Positions 38,205-46,855 of a stretch of 57,992 nt of DNA are shown in pieces (position 1 is the stretch's first letter; every line of letters starts with the position of its first letter). The translations under genes and the position numbers were made by a program. The notes under the pieces were generated by a model. The model did not search any database. It worked only from the letters and a program-made list of their open reading frames with translations, and was not told the origin of the DNA. The DNA is from Thermoplasmata archaeon (GTDB lineage: Archaea; Thermoplasmatota; DTKX01; VGTL01), in NCBI GenBank assembly GCA_038851035.1, contig JAWCLH010000016.1:1-57992 (forward strand). Reading direction: 5' to 3'.

Positions 38205-39268
38205 ATGGGACGCGTCGAGAAACGGCTCGTCGCAATCCAAATCGTCATCACTACAGGAGCGATGATCACGGCAGCGACTGCAGTATTTTTAAATATCAGC
38301 CCTCTCTTGTTGGCATATCTATATTTTATCGGTGGAGCGATTGCAATAACTGGACTTTTAATGGAGGAGAGACTGGAGAATCGTCAAATCGAATTGTCGC
38401 TTCCGGAGACCCCGGAGTCACGCCAGAGGTCTTACGTAATGCTTGGATATGTCAGGGTATGTTCATGTTCTCCTTCGCAGGAGTCGCATTTATCGGGGTC
38501 AAGGAAGAGGACACGCCCTGGCGGGTTATCAACTGGGCAGCTCTTTATCTTTTCATAATCATTGGCATATTCTTATTCTATATCACATATTTCTCTCAAA
38601 AGGACGTTTTCGATGAGTTCCGGGAGAGTCTCTACACTCTCAGGTATAGACCGCCCGGCGAGGTCATCGGAAACGCGTTCAGGGTGGACCCGCTCATGGA
38701 GAAGGATGTGAGCGGAATCGGAATCTGGTTCGCCCGGACGGGTCGAGTGGCTATCCCGCTCGCCGGACTCATCGTCTCCGTCTTGATGGCTGTATTGGCG
38801 GTCACACGATGGCTGGCCGACCCCTCTATTCCAGCCGGTATAGCTCTGATACTCTTCGTCTCCGCTTCGGCCTTCTTCGGCTATCGTATTGTGGTGTTCG
38901 TCAGGCGCGGACCTTCCCCGGTCGAGGCAAATTTCGTGGCCAGCGAAAAGATCCTGGTCGCAATCCAGAAAGCGCTCTCGGAAAAGCATCGTCTCGCCCC
39001 ATCAACCCCCCTGACCACTTTATTTGCAAGCGAGATCCTGCCCGGCCTCCCCTCAGTCGAGTTTCGGGACGAAAGGAAGAGGACGGGCGTCCTCATAAAG
39101 AACCTGGAGCTCGTGAGGGACAGCCATGGAAGGAACAAGCACATGGTTGGGAGAATGATGCTGTTCCGGTCCGTATTCGACAATAGAGATGAGTTACGGC
39201 GGGTGATTGAGGACATCAAGGCCTGCTTCCCGGAGAAGAGGCGGGAGCAGGAGGTCTTGCTGTACTGA
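38205..39268 (+). pseudogene. membrane protein split by a frameshift
   Basis: Two overlapping frames together make one protein of about 350 residues. The first, from ATG 38205, gives two membrane helices (VAIQIVITTGAMITAATAVF and LLAYLYFIGGAIAITGLLM), then loses sense after residue 80. The second frame picks up at about 38455 with MFMFSFAGVAFIGV, more helices (INWAALYLFIIIGIFLFYIT, LAGLIVSVLMAVLAV, AGIALILFVSASAFFGYRIV) and a soluble C-terminal domain ending at 39268. The shift lies between about 38400 and 38460. I do not recognise the family. A single frameshift may be a real mutation or an assembly error, so the gene could be intact. Confidence 0.6.
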
Positions 39269-39370: not shown

Positions 39371-42300
39371 TCATCGCCCCACCCGGCTCTTTCCCTCATG
39401 CCATTGCCAATCAACCACCTGCGGTGCAAGAGCGTTTCTTCTTTCCTCCCCTCCTTTCCCCCTCCTCTCCTCTCCCGGTCCCCGCCCCCCCGCCCTCTTA
39501 ATCGCCTCGAGCTCATCCCTCACCCTACTCTCTATCCTCGGGCCGGTCCTTGAGAACCCGAGCGCCCTCGCGGCCTCAGCCACGATTTCGTCATCCGTTC
39601 TCAGGACGCCGTCCGAGAGAACCCAGAGCACGACCGCCCGAACCTCCTCCGGCTCTAGCTCCTCGACGCTCCCGACCCTCCGGACGGGGGGCGGGGGCCC
39701 CCTCCGCCTCGCCGGGTTCACAATTCGCCAAAGGTCGCCACCGTCTCTCAGGGCCTCCGGCCCGCCGGAGCCCACAGAGGCCTCGCCCATTCCCCGGTCC
39801 GCGTGTCCACCGGCAATTTGCGCGGACCGCTCAATTCCCTTTGCGCCCTGTTCCATCCAGCCCCGCCCGGTGGCAATGTCCCCGGGCTCCCGCGGGCCCC
39901 CCCTATCCGCGACAAAATTCGGCCATCCCTCCCGGCGCTTGGGTGCGGAGAGGTCTGTCAGAGCCGGGCTCCTCCCCACCGACAGCATTCCTGAACAGTC
40001 GAGAGCGTCCGCCGCCTCCACCGCCCTCCTGTAGGCCTCGAGCGCCCTCCGGACCTCTTCCTCGCGCCTCATGAACCAATCCAGGGACCATATTCTATGG
40101 AACCTCCAGCCCAGCGCCTCGAGCCGCTCCTGCCTGAGCCTGTCACGGTCCCGGGCCATTGGAACGGAGTGGTAGCTCGCACCGTCGCACTCTATGGCGA
40201 GGACGAACCTGCCGGGCCTCGAGGGGTGCTGGGCGGCCATGTCGATTCTGTAGCCGGATACGCCCCACTGCGGGACAAGAGGAATTCCTTTCGCCCTGAG
40301 CGTCTCGTATACATCCGCCTCAAACGCGTTGAGGGCCCCGCCGGCACCGGCTGTATCCCCGAGGGTTCTCCCATGTGTTGAGACATATTCCAGATACGCG
40401 CGCAGGAGCTGAACCCCCCTCGCATCCGACCTAGCCGGGTCCATGTCGAGGTGGCTGAACGAGGAGACGACCGTCATCCTGCACCTCGCCCTCGTTATGG
40501 CGACATTAAGCCTCCTCTCACCGCCCTTGTAAAGGAGTGGTCCGAAATGATAGTAAAGCCTCCCGTCCGGCGTTTTCCCGTAGCCTATGGAGAGGATTAT
40601 CGCGTCCCTCTCGTCGCCCTGAACGCGCTCGAGGTTCTTTATAAAGAACGGCTCTCTCCTCTCTGAATTGAAGAACTCCTCGCAATCGACGCCTCTCTCC
40701 AGCACGTCATCGAGCGCCATTTGAATTCTCTTCGCGTGCTTGATACCCAACGCGATGACGCCGAGCGATTCTTCGGGGCGGTTGCGAGCATGCTCCAGAA
40801 TCAGCTCCACCACTCTCCTGACCTCCTCCGCGCTGCTCTCCTCCCGGGTGTCGCGCAGGGTCGCCTCCACCAGCACGAGGGACAGCGCCGGGTCCCTCCC
40901 GCACCCCGGGAAGGTGACCAGCCTGTCGCTGTAGATGTGCCGGTTCGAAAAAGCGATGAGAGCCTCGTCCCTGCTCCTGTAGTGCCAGTCCAGACTTCTT
41001 GTCTCGACGAAAGCGCTCATCACATCCAGAATGCTCTCGAATCCGGAGGTTGTGGATGGCTCCTCCTCGAGCTCCTCGTCCCCCGTCTCCGAGAAGAAGG
41101 TCGTCGGAGGGAGCTGGTTCCTGTCGCCCGCGACAATAGCATGCCTCGCGCGCAGGAGCGTGGGAATGGCGGTCTCCGGCAGGATTTGGCTCGCCTCGTC
41201 GAATATCACATAATCGAAGTAGGTCCTCGATGCGTCGATCAGGTTGCTCACCGAGAGAGGGCTGGCCATCCAGCAGGGGCAGAGCGCCGTCAGGACATCC
41301 AGGGCCTCGGCCATCAGGGCCCGGAGGGGTTTGTGCCTCGTCGCCTTCTTCAGCTCGCGCTTGACGACCGCCGCCTGCGAGGGGAATCTGTTCATCGTGT
41401 CAATGGCCCTCAGGGCGTGCTGCCGCCTGACGCGAGCGCGCGCGAGCCTCAGCTGCTCGTCATCCAGTCTCCGGAACTCCTCTACAAGTCTGTCGTGGGC
41501 CCTCCCGTTGAAGCCCATTGTCTCTGGCGATGAAGCGCTCGCCTCCTCCAGCATCGATTCGAGCCAGGAGCGCCTGAAGACGGATGGCCAGAGTTCCGGA
41601 GAGACCCCCTTCGATATCATAAAATCAAAAACATTGCGCGTGCCCAGCGATGTCAGCTCGTCGACCATATCCTTTAAGCTCACGATTCTATATGGCGTTA
41701 CGCGGTCCGCTGACAGCTCCGAGAGCAGCCCCGCCAGCTCCTCGAAACCGAGCGCTTCGAGACCCCCGGTCCTGAGCGCTGCCGAGACCGTGGAGAGGGC
41801 GCCTGCCACCGAGGCATGTTGCGCCCTCGCCCCATCAAACTCCCGGGGAACGGTGGGTTTCGCGGCCCGATTCCCTGAAATGGTCCTCCACTCCCTCCGG
41901 ACCCGGGAGGCCATCAGGCAGTGCTCATAGACTCGAGAGAGCGGCTGGTGCCCGTGGCGCTCGAGGGAGAGGAGGAGTTTCCGCATCCTGCGGAATCGAG
42001 GGCTCAGGACGAGCCACCTCAGCTCCCGCAAACGGCTGCCCAGGGCCGGCCTCAGGAGCTCAAGCGCCAGCTCCAGGTCCTGGTCGAATATCATGGGCTC
42101 CACAACGGTCAGGACCTCCTCAACATGTTTCACCAATTCCAGCATCCTGCCTGCCTCAGCCGGCGAGTGCGGAGCGGGGAATCCACAGGCGGATGCGAGG
42201 GCCGCCATCCTATTTTTATATCGAGCAAACTCACCCCCGCTGAGCCAGGCCACGGTGTCCTGAACCCGGTTTGCTTCTTCGCCGCTGGAGAACCATGCGC

Positions 42301-43744
42301 CCCTCCAGGGAGACGCACTGGTCCCGAAGATGATGTCGGTGAGGCCAGCCATCCGGGTGAGGAGATGCTGAACCCTGTCGGCCGCGGGGCCGTCCAGTCT
42401 AAGTAGCTCAGCCCCGCGCCAGCGCACCGGACACGCGGTCTCGGGGGGCATCCGAAGGAGGCGCCCCATAATCTCGTAGAGGCTGAGTCCCGCCGGAGGC
42501 CGGGGCATGTGCATCCTCCTGTCGTGAGCATTGAGCGCCGCCCGGCGCTCCGCAAACTGTCGGTTGCATTCATCGGCGCAGACATCCGTGCTTGTTCTAA
42601 GAATCTCGTTCGAGCGCCTTAGGCCGTTGATTATTTCGCGCTTGGAGATATCGGCGGCATGAATGTCGAGCACGAGGTGGTCGAGTCCGCACTCGGTCAG
42701 CCTCTGCAGCACCACATCGAGCGCGGCGCGCTTCTCCGCCACGAAGAGAACCCTCTTCCCCTCAGCGGCCAGCACGGCTATCAGATTAGCAATAGTCTGG
42801 CTCTTCCCCGTCCCCGGGGGACCGGATATAACGAGGTGCTGGCCCCTTCTTGCAGCTTCTATCGCAACGCGCTGGCTGGAATCCGATTTAAGGATGAGCC
42901 ACTCGTCCTCAGGCGGGATGCTGTCCAGTTCACGGGGATCAATTTCTCCGTGCTCACGCTGGAGCGAGGCCTGCGCGACTGGGTCCCCCGCGATGGCCGC
43001 GATCAGCTCATTCGAGACCAGGGTCTCTTCATAGTTATCGAGGTCACGGACCATCGCCATCCTCTGAAAAGCGAAGTTGCCCAGCACGAGAGTGTCGGCT
43101 ATCGAGAAGCCGGGAACTTCTCTGGCTATGGCCCGGAGCTCTCCGAATATGGCTGAAATATCGGTTTGCTCCACCTCATTCTCCAGATCCGGCAGGAGAG
43201 CTTCTTCGTCCACCCTGCAGCCGAAGTCCGAGCGCAGGACCTGCACAAGGGCAGGATTCAGGCGAAGGTCCCCGACGCGCTTGATTGTCGCATTGCGCGG
43301 GTCGGAGCCTCTGTAGGAGACGGAGACGGGCATCAGAAGAACGGGAGCAGCGGGCGGGCGCCCCCCGTCGACAGCGTTCCAGCTCGCCATTCCGAATGCA
43401 AGGAAAAGCGTCTCCAGGCCCCGCTCTTCGAGATTTGATCGGGCCCTTCGCCATATCTCTCTCAGGGCGGCGGCGGCCCTCGCCCGCTCCTCCTCGGGGA
43501 ACGCGCTGAGCGGAGAGACCTCGGCCCCGCCAAGGAGGGCGCGCCTCGCTCCGCCGTCGAGGCCGTCGAGCCTGAGGGTGCCGGCTCTCAGCTCCCGAAA
43601 ATATAGGAGGTTGTTCCTGCGCGAGAGGTCCATGAGCTGTCTTTTCCATCCATCCCTGGCTTTGAGGACGATTTCTCGCCGCCTTGTGAGAGGGTCGTCC
43701 GGAGGGGATGGCGCGCCCGTATTCAATCCCGAGCCGTCTCCCAT
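39371..43744 (-). CDS. DUF4011 SF1 helicase with C-terminal PD-(D/E)XK nuclease and DUF3320
   Basis: A 1457-residue fusion. The N-terminal DUF4011-like segment contains RDGWKRQLMDLSRRNNLLYF near residues 30-49. A Upf1-type superfamily 1 helicase follows, with Walker A GPPGTGKSQTIANLI at 308-322, the Walker B variant YVIFDEASQILPETAIPTL, AGDRNQLPPT, and motif VI NVAITRARCRM. A Vsr/DUF559-like nuclease (MTES_1575 type) near residues 1190-1270 shows AIECDGASYHSVPMARDRDR and RFHRIWSLDWF. A DUF3320-like domain is near the end (VVLWVLSDGVLRTDDEIVAE). Such proteins sit in defence-rich loci. The GGGTATTAAAATAG promoter near 43775-43785 gives it its own start. It may also repair DNA. Confidence 0.92.
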   Translation of the reverse strand: MGDGSGLNTGAPSPPDDPLTRRREIVLKARDGWKRQLMDLSRRNNLLYFRELRAGTLRLDGLDGGARRALLGGAEVSPLSAFPEEERARAAAALREIWRRARSNLEERGLETLFLAFGMASWNAVDGGRPPAAPVLLMPVSVSYRGSDPRNATIKRVGDLRLNPALVQVLRSDFGCRVDEEALLPDLENEVEQTDISAIFGELRAIAREVPGFSIADTLVLGNFAFQRMAMVRDLDNYEETLVSNELIAAIAGDPVAQASLQREHGEIDPRELDSIPPEDEWLILKSDSSQRVAIEAARRGQHLVISGPPGTGKSQTIANLIAVLAAEGKRVLFVAEKRAALDVVLQRLTECGLDHLVLDIHAADISKREIINGLRRSNEILRTSTDVCADECNRQFAERRAALNAHDRRMHMPRPPAGLSLYEIMGRLLRMPPETACPVRWRGAELLRLDGPAADRVQHLLTRMAGLTDIIFGTSASPWRGAWFSSGEEANRVQDTVAWLSGGEFARYKNRMAALASACGFPAPHSPAEAGRMLELVKHVEEVLTVVEPMIFDQDLELALELLRPALGSRLRELRWLVLSPRFRRMRKLLLSLERHGHQPLSRVYEHCLMASRVRREWRTISGNRAAKPTVPREFDGARAQHASVAGALSTVSAALRTGGLEALGFEELAGLLSELSADRVTPYRIVSLKDMVDELTSLGTRNVFDFMISKGVSPELWPSVFRRSWLESMLEEASASSPETMGFNGRAHDRLVEEFRRLDDEQLRLARARVRRQHALRAIDTMNRFPSQAAVVKRELKKATRHKPLRALMAEALDVLTALCPCWMASPLSVSNLIDASRTYFDYVIFDEASQILPETAIPTLLRARHAIVAGDRNQLPPTTFFSETGDEELEEEPSTTSGFESILDVMSAFVETRSLDWHYRSRDEALIAFSNRHIYSDRLVTFPGCGRDPALSLVLVEATLRDTREESSAEEVRRVVELILEHARNRPEESLGVIALGIKHAKRIQMALDDVLERGVDCEEFFNSERREPFFIKNLERVQGDERDAIILSIGYGKTPDGRLYYHFGPLLYKGGERRLNVAITRARCRMTVVSSFSHLDMDPARSDARGVQLLRAYLEYVSTHGRTLGDTAGAGGALNAFEADVYETLRAKGIPLVPQWGVSGYRIDMAAQHPSRPGRFVLAIECDGASYHSVPMARDRDRLRQERLEALGWRFHRIWSLDWFMRREEEVRRALEAYRRAVEAADALDCSGMLSVGRSPALTDLSAPKRREGWPNFVADRGGPREPGDIATGRGWMEQGAKGIERSAQIAGGHADRGMGEASVGSGGPEALRDGGDLWRIVNPARRRGPPPPVRRVGSVEELEPEEVRAVVLWVLSDGVLRTDDEIVAEAARALGFSRTGPRIESRVRDELEAIKRAGGRGPGEERRGKGGEERRNALAPQVVDWQWHEGKSRVGR

Positions 43745-44011
43745 CTGTCACTCCCCGCATCTCAATTGCAGTCAGACTATTTTAATACCCTTGGGCTCCC
43801 TCCACAGCCCTCGCGCCTGAGTAATATTGGTCGCTCTAGAGAGAGCACGGTCTGAAAGCCACCACAAACAGGAGACTTGACAGTGGCGGGTGGGACCTCA
43901 TTATGGCGGGTGGTGACGAGAGAGGGCTCCGGCGGCTGGGTGAGGGCGAGGCCGCTCTCCTCACCTCTCCGAAACCTGGAAAACGGTCCCATTTTCACGC
44001 CCTCACGTCCC

Positions 44012-45235
44012 TCACTCCTCCTCCCTCAGCCTCCCCAGCCTAACCTCCGGTCTCTCTGTCCTCCTGACGAAGGGCGCCAGCGTCCTCGCCACCCTTCTGT
44101 CCAGCGCGCCCTCCTCGAGCGCTCTCAGAAGGGCGTGGCTGTCGAGAACGGAGAACTGGTCCCAGAGCCCCGCGCCCCTGACCACCTCCGCAACTCTATC
44201 GTACTCCTCCTCTTCCGAGGACCGGCTCGGGAGTGCCGGGACCATGCGAACATTTACGGACGCCACGGCCGAGCTCCCGCGCACCCTCGTCACTCCCTCG
44301 CGCCTAGCGTAGTCTATCAGCCTCTGCCTCACACCTTCGAGCTCCTCGGCCAGCTCCCTCTCTCGCGCCTTGAGAGCCGCGTACCGGTTCACCAGCTCGA
44401 AGCCCTCCTCGCGGGCCGCGTCCGGGGGCTCCAGCTCCGCGATTTTGACCAAGTGCCTTTTCTCGGGGCAGTAGGACCAGTAGGGGCACCAGTCGCAGAG
44501 CGGGCCGGGCCTCGGCTTAAACTCGCGCTCGCCTTCAATCCTTTCAATGAGCGCAGCGCACTCCGCCTCCAGCGCCTCAAGCTGCTCGGGTGTCCTGGTT
44601 GAGACCAGCTCCTCCCCGAACTGGAGGAAGTGCCACACTAGCTTCACATTGGTCGCGTCGCTCCACATCCTCTGGACCCCGAGCTGGTAGAGCGCGAGCT
44701 GGCGGTCCTCATCAATCTGCGCCTGGGTCGGCAGGAAACTAGAAGTCTTGTAGTCGTGAATCTCGTATGAGCCATCGGGCATTCTATCGATTCTATCAAT
44801 AACGCCCCTGACGGTGTGGGGCCCGAGCGTGAAAGAGAAGGTCCTTTCGATTCCCACCGGCGTGCCCTGGTCGAAGGGCCTGAAGCGGCTATAGTATCGC
44901 TCGATGCACCTCCTGCCCGTGTCGAAGTAGTTCTGCGGTGTGTAGCCCTTTCTGGCAATCACAATGCCGTCGTGCCAGTCCCTCTCCCACTCCCTCCTGT
45001 AAAACTCCAGGAGCTCCTCCAGCGTGTTGAGTTTTGACCTCTGGAGGTCCACATAGAGCTTCTCGAGCGCGCTGTGGACCTTCGTGCCCATGTAGGCCTC
45101 GATGCCCTCTTCCTCGACCTCTATGCGGTCTATGTAGGCTAGCTTGTACTGCAGGGGGCAGTTCTCAAAGGTCTCGAGTCTGGTGTGTGAGTAGACCGCC
45201 AACCACGTCACCCCCCTTGCTCCCGCAATCATCAA
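44012..45235 (-). CDS. RecB/Cas4-like PD-(D/E)XK nuclease with iron-sulfur cysteines
   Basis: A 407-residue exonuclease-like protein of the PD-(D/E)XK_1 family. GTKVHSALEKLY near residues 49-60 supplies the N-terminal His. VRGVIDRIDRMPDGS and EIHDYKTSS near 138-163 hold the catalytic D and DxK, followed by DRQLALYQLG (QxxxY motif). One Cys in TFENCPLQYKLAYID and three in CDWCPYWSYC near 247-256 match the [4Fe-4S] arrangement of AddB/Cas4-type nucleases. A coiled-coil (about 280-315) and C-terminal region follow. No cas genes lie nearby. It is on the same strand as the DUF559 and helicase genes and probably acts on DNA ends. Confidence 0.9.
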   Translation of the reverse strand: MMIAGARGVTWLAVYSHTRLETFENCPLQYKLAYIDRIEVEEEGIEAYMGTKVHSALEKLYVDLQRSKLNTLEELLEFYRREWERDWHDGIVIARKGYTPQNYFDTGRRCIERYYSRFRPFDQGTPVGIERTFSFTLGPHTVRGVIDRIDRMPDGSYEIHDYKTSSFLPTQAQIDEDRQLALYQLGVQRMWSDATNVKLVWHFLQFGEELVSTRTPEQLEALEAECAALIERIEGEREFKPRPGPLCDWCPYWSYCPEKRHLVKIAELEPPDAAREEGFELVNRYAALKARERELAEELEGVRQRLIDYARREGVTRVRGSSAVASVNVRMVPALPSRSSEEEEYDRVAEVVRGAGLWDQFSVLDSHALLRALEEGALDRRVARTLAPFVRRTERPEVRLGRLREEE

Positions 45236-45285
45236 TCGATTCGGGAATATATCTCACTATCCTTTCAGGCTGGGCTGTGCCCCTC

Positions 45286-45573
45286 CTACACATATGCCCT
45301 CATCACCTCCTCGAGCTCTCTCCGGCGGCCATCGGTCGAATCGACCGGCTTGAATATCGGTGACTTCCGCTCGCGCATCTGTAGGATAAACTGCCTAGGG
45401 TCCTCAGAGGCGACCTCGAACCCGAGCACGAGCAGGTCGCCCGCGAAGGCAGAGAGCCTCTCCCACCCTAGCTGCTTCAGGGCCTCTGGGGACATATGGT
45501 GCCTGGTCATCCTCCAGACCTCGACGATGGTCTCCAGCAAGTCTTCATGGACCTCTACCTTCAGTTCAGGCAT
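45286..45573 (-). CDS. unknown 95-residue protein between two nuclease genes
   Basis: I do not recognise it. It is acidic and probably helical: VEVHEDLLETIVEVWRMTRH near residues 6-25, then HHMSPEALKQLGWERLSAFAG and LLVLGFEVAS. The ATG lies inside the 3' end of the DUF559 gene (8-base overlap), so translation is coupled. A small protein coupled to a nuclease may be an adaptor, inhibitor or immunity partner, but nothing in the sequence proves it. The RecB-like gene follows about 50 bases downstream. Confidence 0.7.
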   Translation of the reverse strand: MPELKVEVHEDLLETIVEVWRMTRHHMSPEALKQLGWERLSAFAGDLLVLGFEVASEDPRQFILQMRERKSPIFKPVDSTDGRRRELEEVMRAYV

Positions 45574-45952
45574 CGCGTACCCCCCTCCTTCTCATGACAT
45601 CGGCCAGGAGAATTCTCTCGCTCTTAGTGAGACCCCGGAGCCTAAGCGGACCGCCGCAGAGCCTGACCACGAGCTTCCGGCGGACCCTCCATGGCGCTCT
45701 CACCAGATCCGTGCCCCAGAAGCGAATCACCCTGTAGCCCAAGGCGAAGAGCTCCTGGTCCCGAATTCGGTCCCTGCGCATCGCCTCGCCTTGGTGGTAG
45801 GGCTCCCCGTCGGCCTCCATTATTATTTTGTACTCCGGAAAAAGGACATCGACCTCGTACCCTCGAACGCGCTGGTTGGTCAGGTACTTTCCGGCCAGCC
45901 CAAGTGAGTCCAGAATTCCGCAGAGACAGCGCTCGATGCAGGTCTTCACCAC
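45566..45952 (-). CDS. Vsr/DUF559-like endonuclease
   Basis: A 128-residue single-domain PD-(D/E)XK nuclease. YEVDVLFPEYKIIMEADGEP near residues 31-50 holds the acidic residues. The His of PYHQGE, the RDRIRDQEL helix near 60-68, and GYRVIRFWGTDL near 71-82 fit the Vsr-like/DUF559 pattern. Such domains nick or cut DNA and are common in mobile and defence loci. The same fold recurs at the C-terminus of the 1457-residue protein in the same cluster. It heads the putative operon, and the divergent CARF-like gene starts about 140 bases away, sharing the promoter region. Confidence 0.85.
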   Translation of the reverse strand: MVKTCIERCLCGILDSLGLAGKYLTNQRVRGYEVDVLFPEYKIIMEADGEPYHQGEAMRRDRIRDQELFALGYRVIRFWGTDLVRAPWRVRRKLVVRLCGGPLRLRGLTKSERILLADVMRRRGVRDA

Positions 45953-46071
45953 TAGTCTCCCCCCAGCGAAATACCATCATTTGCTTCCCAACCCAACTCA
46001 TCAGTTGCGGCTATACCGCTGCACCGTATCATGGTTAGGTAGAAATGCGGAAAAAATAAATAACAAATAAT

Positions 46072-46084
46072 ACGTTACAAACGT
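46072..46084. promoter_or_regulatory. palindromic operator candidate in the nuclease/CARF divergent promoter
   Basis: ACGTT-ACA-AACGT is a perfect 5-bp-arm inverted repeat, located 16 bases before ATG 46100 and just downstream of the very AT-rich AAAAAATAAATAACAAATAA at 46051-46070, which looks like TATA DNA. Its symmetry and place suggest a binding site for a dimeric regulator, perhaps the adjacent winged-helix protein. Confidence 0.5.
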
Positions 46085-46099
46085 TATGGAGTTGTGTAT

Positions 46100-46855
46100 A
46101 TGCCGGGGCTTTCGAATCTTAGGATCGTAGTCTCTTGTGTTACATTTGAGACTGTTATGGTTGTTAAACCCATCGAGTTCTACCGAGCCGACCGGGTCTA
46201 TCTTATTCATTATGCACGGAAGCCGCCCTATACCGACTTTCTTAGGGAAGTCGAGTCCCAGCTAAAGCCTCTCGTACGAGAGTGCGAGCGAGTGGAGGTG
46301 AACGTTAATAGCTTCAGGGATGTTCTCAGGGTCCTTCTGCAAATAATCCGGAGAGAGAAGGGTGCCGGGAATCATGTTTATGTTAACATCAGCGCCGGGC
46401 CAAATGTTTATGGGGCCGCTGCGCTCGTCGCCTGTGGAATGGAGGGGGCGATTCCATTCAGCGTGGGGGTGAAGGAATATACGGTCAGGGATATGAGTGT
46501 GTATTGTGTCGATGGAAAGCTTGTCGGCCTCGCTAGGGCCGTGTACGACCCTACTCCCCTTCCTGAGTTCGAGATCAGGGCCCCGAAGCGGGAGCATGTG
46601 GCAGGGCTGGGGGTCCTAGACAAAATGCTCCGCCAGAGGGCGATATTGAGCGCCTCCAACATCGTCCGAAGGCTGGAAAGGGAAGGCTTGATGTCGGCCG
46701 TTTTCGACCAGAGAGGGAGGGTGACGCAAAGCGCTATAATGAGGTACCGCAGGAACTTTCTCGAGCCGTGGCTTAGGAACCAATGGGTCCGAGGCAAGGG
46801 GCGGGAGCTCTCGATAACCGAGCTCGGCAGAACTGTTTTGGAAATATTCGGCTGA
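46100..46855 (+). CDS. CARF-like Rossmann domain fused to winged helix (HFX_2341/DUF6293-like)
   Basis: About 251 residues. The N-terminal Rossmann-like domain (1-125) runs from RIVVSCVTFETVMVVKPIEF through ADRVYLIHYARKP to VYVNISAGPNVYGAAALVAC near residues 92-111. The last segment equals the nucleotide-contact strand of CARF domains, although GPN replaces the common GTK. A winged helix follows (about 170-251), with ILSASNIVRRLEREGLMSAV and a C-terminal LSITELGRTVLEIF. CARF-HTH proteins such as Csa3 and the HFX_2341 family are transcription regulators gated by cyclic oligoadenylate or other nucleotides. Start may be GTG 46094 or ATG 46100. It diverges from the nuclease operon. Confidence 0.8.
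   Translation: MPGLSNLRIVVSCVTFETVMVVKPIEFYRADRVYLIHYARKPPYTDFLREVESQLKPLVRECERVEVNVNSFRDVLRVLLQIIRREKGAGNHVYVNISAGPNVYGAAALVACGMEGAIPFSVGVKEYTVRDMSVYCVDGKLVGLARAVYDPTPLPEFEIRAPKREHVAGLGVLDKMLRQRAILSASNIVRRLEREGLMSAVFDQRGRVTQSAIMRYRRNFLEPWLRNQWVRGKGRELSITELGRTVLEIFG

Follow-up and report, generated by a model that had tools for sequence, protein, structure and literature searches.

We identify P0005, the gene that faces a group of nuclease genes in the window (the whole stretch of DNA analysed, 57,992 nucleotides), as a CARF-winged-helix regulator of the HFX_2341/DUF6293 (CARF3) family. Tandem 9-bp direct repeats are conserved at the promoters of this sensor family and near-unique in the sensor's own genome, and in relatives the same repeats lie before nuclease, DNA-break-processing and cas genes. 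The sequence-only reading had seen here a candidate nucleotide-gated defence locus, in which the sensor controls the neighbouring nucleases, a helicase-nuclease among them. The computational evidence lends independent support to the regulatory part of that idea, and it points to a CARF regulon that takes in cas genes and genes for DNA-end processing, not to a nucleotide-gated system of five genes.

The sensor and the genes that it faces

The window spans the whole of contig C16, part of an archaeal genome of 2.69 Mb (99% complete), in which an archaeal RNase P was found and whose relatives are Thermoplasmatota. All five genes previously described on it are present and judged to be real, including the minus-strand DUF559 nuclease, the coupled 95-residue unknown and the RecB/Cas4-like nuclease with its Cys set; the divergent starts of P0004 and P0005 lie 141 bases apart (Table 1). 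The decayed genes reported to the left amount to one membrane-protein gene (38205-39268) split over two frames, and its frame break near 38450 fits either a frameshifted pseudogene or an assembly error. The remaining genes of the window, read by eye, are mostly metabolic and informational rather than those of a defence island.

Table 1. Features of the sensor-nuclease region, in coordinates of the window
Feature	Position	Strand	Basis or placement
P0001, DUF4011-AAA_11/12-MTES_1575 helicase-nuclease, 1457 aa, PDC-S37/ProA-like	39371..43744	-	Pfam, PADLOC
TATA-like box TATTAAAATA	43778..43787	-	34-43 bp upstream of P0001, by eye
P0002, Cas4/RecB-like PD-(D/E)XK nuclease (PDDEXK_1), four-Cys set	44012..45235	-	Pfam, Cas4-like similarity
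P0003, 95-aa protein of no known family, overlaps P0004 by 8 bases	45286..45573	-	ORF
P0004, DUF559/MTES_1575 (Vsr-like) nuclease, 128 aa	45566..45952	-	first gene of divergent group
Imperfect palindrome CAACTCATCAGTTG	45994..46007	.	divergent intergenic region
Putative operator, two 9-bp direct-repeat units ACGTTACAA ACGTTAT	46072..46087	+	expected transcription start of sensor
P0005, CARF3-type CARF + winged-helix transcription regulator (HFX_2341_N + DUF6293_C)	46094..46855	+	profiles, alignment, AlphaFold model

The annotated start of P0005 is GTG 46094, with the alignment favouring ATG 46100. Its N-terminal region matches Pfam HFX_2341_N (67.7 bits vs a cut-off of 30), its C-terminal winged helix matches DUF6293_C (PF22665; 32.0 vs 27 bits), and PADLOC assigns it to CARF3 (E=9e-55). 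A phmmer search against PDB sequences returned nothing meaningful, so a fold comparison was needed, for which we used an AlphaFold2 model with 48 homologues as input (mean pLDDT 93.6). Among the 50 PDB fold matches listed, 49 are recognisable as CARF by title, and the remaining one, VC1899, we take to be a member of the CARF superfamily; the top matches comprise Csa3, Csm6, ring nucleases, Cam1, Can1/Can2 and Cad1. Taken over the whole query, the normalised TM-scores stay modest (0.36-0.46), which probably reflects that the CARF domain is the main part that superposes. Since the fold matches are CARF proteins, the N-terminal domain can be accepted as CARF, as the sequence-only reading held. 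A VNxSAG motif that resembles a ligand site is kept in the family (N98 in at least 90% and G102 invariant in alignments A1/A2).

CARF proteins are best known for receiving the second messengers of type III CRISPR systems. In the 99%-complete genome to which the window belongs, a search confined to models for Cas10, Cas1 and mCpol gave no matches. Gating by cyclic oligonucleotides is thus left without a known source, and the claim of nucleotide gating finds no support in this genome. P0005 and HFX_2341 of Haloferax mediterranei are alike in the HFX_2341_N and DUF6293_C domains of a CARF-wHTH protein, and the host of HFX_2341, too, is without a cyclase like those of type III CRISPR systems (PMC11434293). 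Over-expressed HFX_2341 represses cas genes, and its deletion raised cas3 most among the cas genes while the genes that went up were mainly those for transport and metabolism (PMC11434293). Unlike HFX_2341, for which the available text of PMC11434293 describes no operator, P0005 has a putative local operator with a single promoter site in the genome, and it faces nucleases. The top PDB fold match, Csa3 of Saccharolobus/Sulfolobus (6wxq, 2wte), likewise combines CARF with a winged helix, and Csa3a is reported (cited in PMC8844856) to activate genes for CRISPR adaptation and for DNA repair. P0005 differs from Csa3 in falling below the profile cut-off (TIGR01884, 22.9 vs 60.2), in belonging to a genome in which Cas1 and Cas10 were not found, and in the 9-bp direct repeats at its promoter.

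Of the divergent genes, P0004 passes the Pfam cut-offs for DUF559 (40.5 vs 20.6) and MTES_1575 (39.5 vs 38.2) and stays below that for the Vsr mismatch endonuclease (25.7 vs 97.85); in the genomes of the phylum its only homologues were nuclease domains of helicases. P0003 is modelled by AF2 entirely as helices, with low confidence (pLDDT 74), and a reading of it as a ribbon-helix-helix antitoxin partner of P0004 was accordingly dropped. Its homologues occur, away from sensors, in 7 other genomes (one of them weakly matched) among 243 of the phylum, spread over a few other lineages; by eye, those at L211-L216 form a small conserved archaeal family near genes of housekeeping or informational function, such as aIF6 and UbiA-like genes. 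Neither P0003 nor P0004 had a homologue beside a sensor in the other genomes, and viral contigs yielded no relatives of the sensor or of P0003. P0002, whose probable true start is TTG 45202, resembles the Fe-S nucleases of Cas4/AddB type in its PDDEXK_1 domain and its four-Cys arrangement (FENC near the N terminus, CDWCPYWSYC further on). It differs from Cas4 in scoring below the cut-off (TIGR00372, 28 vs 65), in its length of 407 aa with a C-terminal extension, and in being mostly stand-alone in the phylum.

The helicase P0001 shares DUF4011, AAA_11/12 and the MTES_1575 nuclease with PDC-S37, ProA and Hhe, scoring 983 bits against PADLOC PDC-S37 over three stretches (the best at 727-1347 of 1550). 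Unlike ProA and Hhe themselves, it remains under the NCBIfam cut-offs (ProA 937 vs 1500, Hhe 649 vs 2000), and DUF3320 at its C terminus is a sub-threshold match (14.4 vs 25 bits), so that the earlier description holds for its DUF4011, helicase and nuclease domains and only at that level for DUF3320. The box TATTAAAATA suggests that P0001 has its own promoter, and together with the 267-bp gap that separates P0001 from P0002 upstream it makes a common operon doubtful. In all likelihood P0001 is a PDC-S37-type defence gene that acts independently of its neighbours and is transcribed separately.

Direct repeats at sensor promoters and at other genes

The tandem repeats were first noticed on reading sensor upstreams side by side. 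In the window they read ACGTTACAAACGTTAT (family consensus NNYGTTAYN, with a strict 9-bp period) and lie 7-22 bp ahead of the GTG start codon of P0005, directly after a TATA-like, AT-rich stretch (46052-46063), at a place where a bound protein would block transcription of that gene. At least two GTWAY units at the exact 9-bp period occur in 17 of the 55 sensor upstreams (both strands scored), as against a mean of 0.39 and a maximum of 4 in 200 dinucleotide shuffles, a comparison that overstates the surprise somewhat since the unit was defined by eye on the same sequences; at least three units occur in 6 of the 55 and in none of the shuffles. The period scan and the genome scans are more independent. 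On the coding strand, 17 loci show a period of 9 and 9 loci a period of 18, with at most 3 at each other period from 5 to 21. In the sensor's own genome the exact two-unit pattern recurs, beyond the sensor promoter, in one intragenic match (C3:5553), located within a gene for a repeat protein and regarded as a chance hit. We found no description of this signature in the literature. The palindrome earlier proposed as a promoter element does exist, but what the homologues share is the direct repeat; being unique in the genome and absent from the other sensor promoters compared, CAACTCATCAGTTG was rejected as an operator.

A scan of the 36 sensor-bearing genomes for three units yielded 56 matches, as against 10 when the pattern was reversed, a count that includes overlapping matches and one genome under two handles. 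Many of the genes whose starts face these matches are sensor genes. The repeats were further found 17 bp before a cas3 followed by cas5 (L275), 291 bp before another cas3 (L255), 74 bp before addBA in a genome whose sensor is on a different contig (L276), about 106 bp before sbcDC (L269), 372 bp before a YhcG/DUF1016 nuclease (L256), before NYN-X-YqaJ genes with which the sensor shares them (L246, L289), and before Schlafen AlbA_2-type genes (L283 by Pfam, L280 by eye); the cas3 of L275, the addBA of L276 and the sbcDC of L269 were found by the motif search itself. Unrelated genes, such as those for ribosomal L15e, formate-THF ligase and SIMPL, are also preceded by them. In L269 a P0002 homologue and a NYN gene have two units between them, at a distance of 49 bp ahead of the P0002 homologue. 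Among the other gene starts in sensor loci, 9 of 557 carry at least two units vs 1.5 expected, and these nine include one SbcD gene, NYN genes and a second sensor. The repeats are absent at the sensor-linked AddB or SbcD promoters of L119, L156, L191, L192 and L094.

Two further groups of genes were seen at repeat sites. Two TnpB-like genes of G287 (L262, L263) have the repeats either about 28 bp ahead of their called start or just past it. At L282, L284 and L285 the repeat sites are followed by a conserved ORF of about 100 aa (FNRYLVMYGPDEGxTGIKGIRSDAP-like), the one copy tested having no Pfam match.

Gene linkage across the phylum

Homologue searches covered 243 genomes of the phylum, of which 42 have the helicase P0001 and 62 have P0002 homologues, largely in different families; P0002 homologues are widespread and mostly stand-alone, and in the sampled neighbourhoods of either gene the other is missing. 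No P0001 homologue stands beside another sensor in these neighbourhoods, the nearest being about 7 kb off (L161), and P0001 was rejected as part of a sensor unit on linkage. Given these distributions, and with no P0003 or P0004 homologue beside a sensor, the five-gene arrangement is unique to the window among the genomes searched, and we discarded it as a conserved system.

The 53 sensor loci fetched present other associations. In two other lineages, at L192 and L094/L167 (51% identity between the sensors), the sensor gene is divergent to an operon of genes for a NYN protein, an unknown, partly coiled-coil protein, SbcD, SbcC and a P0002 homologue, and at L189 a sensor, a NYN gene and a P0002 homologue lie within about 6 kb. 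Sensors are also found near SbcCD (L119, L146), AddAB-like or UvrD-PDDEXK genes (L156, L158, L191, L196), YqaJ exonuclease (L162, L177) and Cas12a (L121, L169). In total, about 13 of 54 sensor loci have an SbcCD, AddAB-like, Cas12a or YqaJ module, and 40 comparison windows (593 kb), non-random in that they were centred on P0001, P0002 and P0003 homologues, contain a single YqaJ and, apart from the bait nuclease domain, neither SbcCD nor AddAB nor Cas12a. The Fisher value for this enrichment (4e-4) is indicative only, since it took 0/40 controls and so left out the YqaJ case, the 'DNA-processing' grouping was picked after the neighbours were seen, and related genomes are non-independent. The majority of sensor loci are without a nuclease module in their surroundings. 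G001, the sister genome, retains a sensor of 59% identity, the upstream region of which is cut by the contig end, and has no P0002 orthologue. The link between sensor and nucleases drawn by the earlier reading is thus supported for the sensor family, through recurrent linkage and shared repeats, and unsupported for the five-gene unit.

Two arrangements in these loci may be recorded in their own right. In Methanomassiliicoccales, a CARF3 sensor lies 16-128 bp from Cas12a (L121:7714-12384, L169:6955-10765), the two Cas12a proteins being 52% identical to each other. There is also an apparent module in which a NYN protein and an unknown, often coiled-coil protein precede either SbcDC and a RecB-like nuclease or a YqaJ exonuclease (L192:2288-9867, L094:1178-8732, L162:7359-9860).

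Readings of the locus

We propose that P0005 would bind the tandem 9-bp repeats overlapping its own transcription start and repress itself, and that through the same intergenic region it would control the divergent P0004-P0003-P0002 genes. A CARF ligand signalling stress or foreign DNA would change this binding, upon which the DNA-end-processing nuclease module would be made. We infer that the protein bound to the repeats is P0005, that its effect is repression and not activation, that it responds to a ligand and that it controls the divergent operon, the last of these staying an inference because the putative operator is placed at the start of the sensor gene itself, some 125 bp away from P0004. 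An autorepressor that also controls the divergent genes is the likeliest of the readings considered, and we weigh its chances as evenly balanced.

That same position of the operator, together with P0004 and P0003 occurring beside no other sensor, P0002 homologues being mostly stand-alone and the own genome offering no other good promoter site, is what would be expected if the sensor regulated only itself, or itself and distant genes, its place opposite the nucleases being incidental. The recurrence of P0002 homologues in a sensor-facing operon or under the repeats in Methanomassiliicoccales argues against such self-regulation, which we regard as rather unlikely. A system in which sensor, three nucleases and helicase act together under CARF gating draws on the physical adjacency of the genes and on PDC-S37/Hhe/ProA relatives being annotated as anti-phage proteins or candidates; with the set at no other locus, the helicase accompanied by neither P0002 nor P0004 nor a sensor in those relatives that were examined, and a TATA-like box of its own before the helicase, it appears improbable. 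We judge it equally improbable that P0005 is a general metabolic regulator with incidental defence or repair targets, as the response of transport and metabolism genes to HFX_2341 deletion and the repeat sites before housekeeping genes might suggest: its motif is at a single promoter in its own genome, and the repeat-bearing non-sensor promoters near sensors include those of SbcD and NYN operons.

Beyond autorepression with divergent control in the window, we tentatively envisage, with somewhat less than even confidence, a CRISPR-independent CARF regulon in Thermoplasmatota, in which a signal-reading CARF-wHTH protein would jointly control, via the 9-bp repeats, itself, cas3-led CRISPR operons, SbcCD, AddAB-like helicase-nucleases and Cas4/RecB-like nucleases. 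Such a regulon, if true, would couple immunity to DNA-end processing even where, as in the genome of the window, neither CRISPR nor a cyclic-oligonucleotide cyclase was found, and would give a testable answer to the role of CRISPR-unlinked CARF regulators, with the repeat operator as a sequence signature for finding further archaeal targets. The presence of this signature at sensor, CRISPR and break-processing genes suggests that they share a control circuit, an idea now open to testing.
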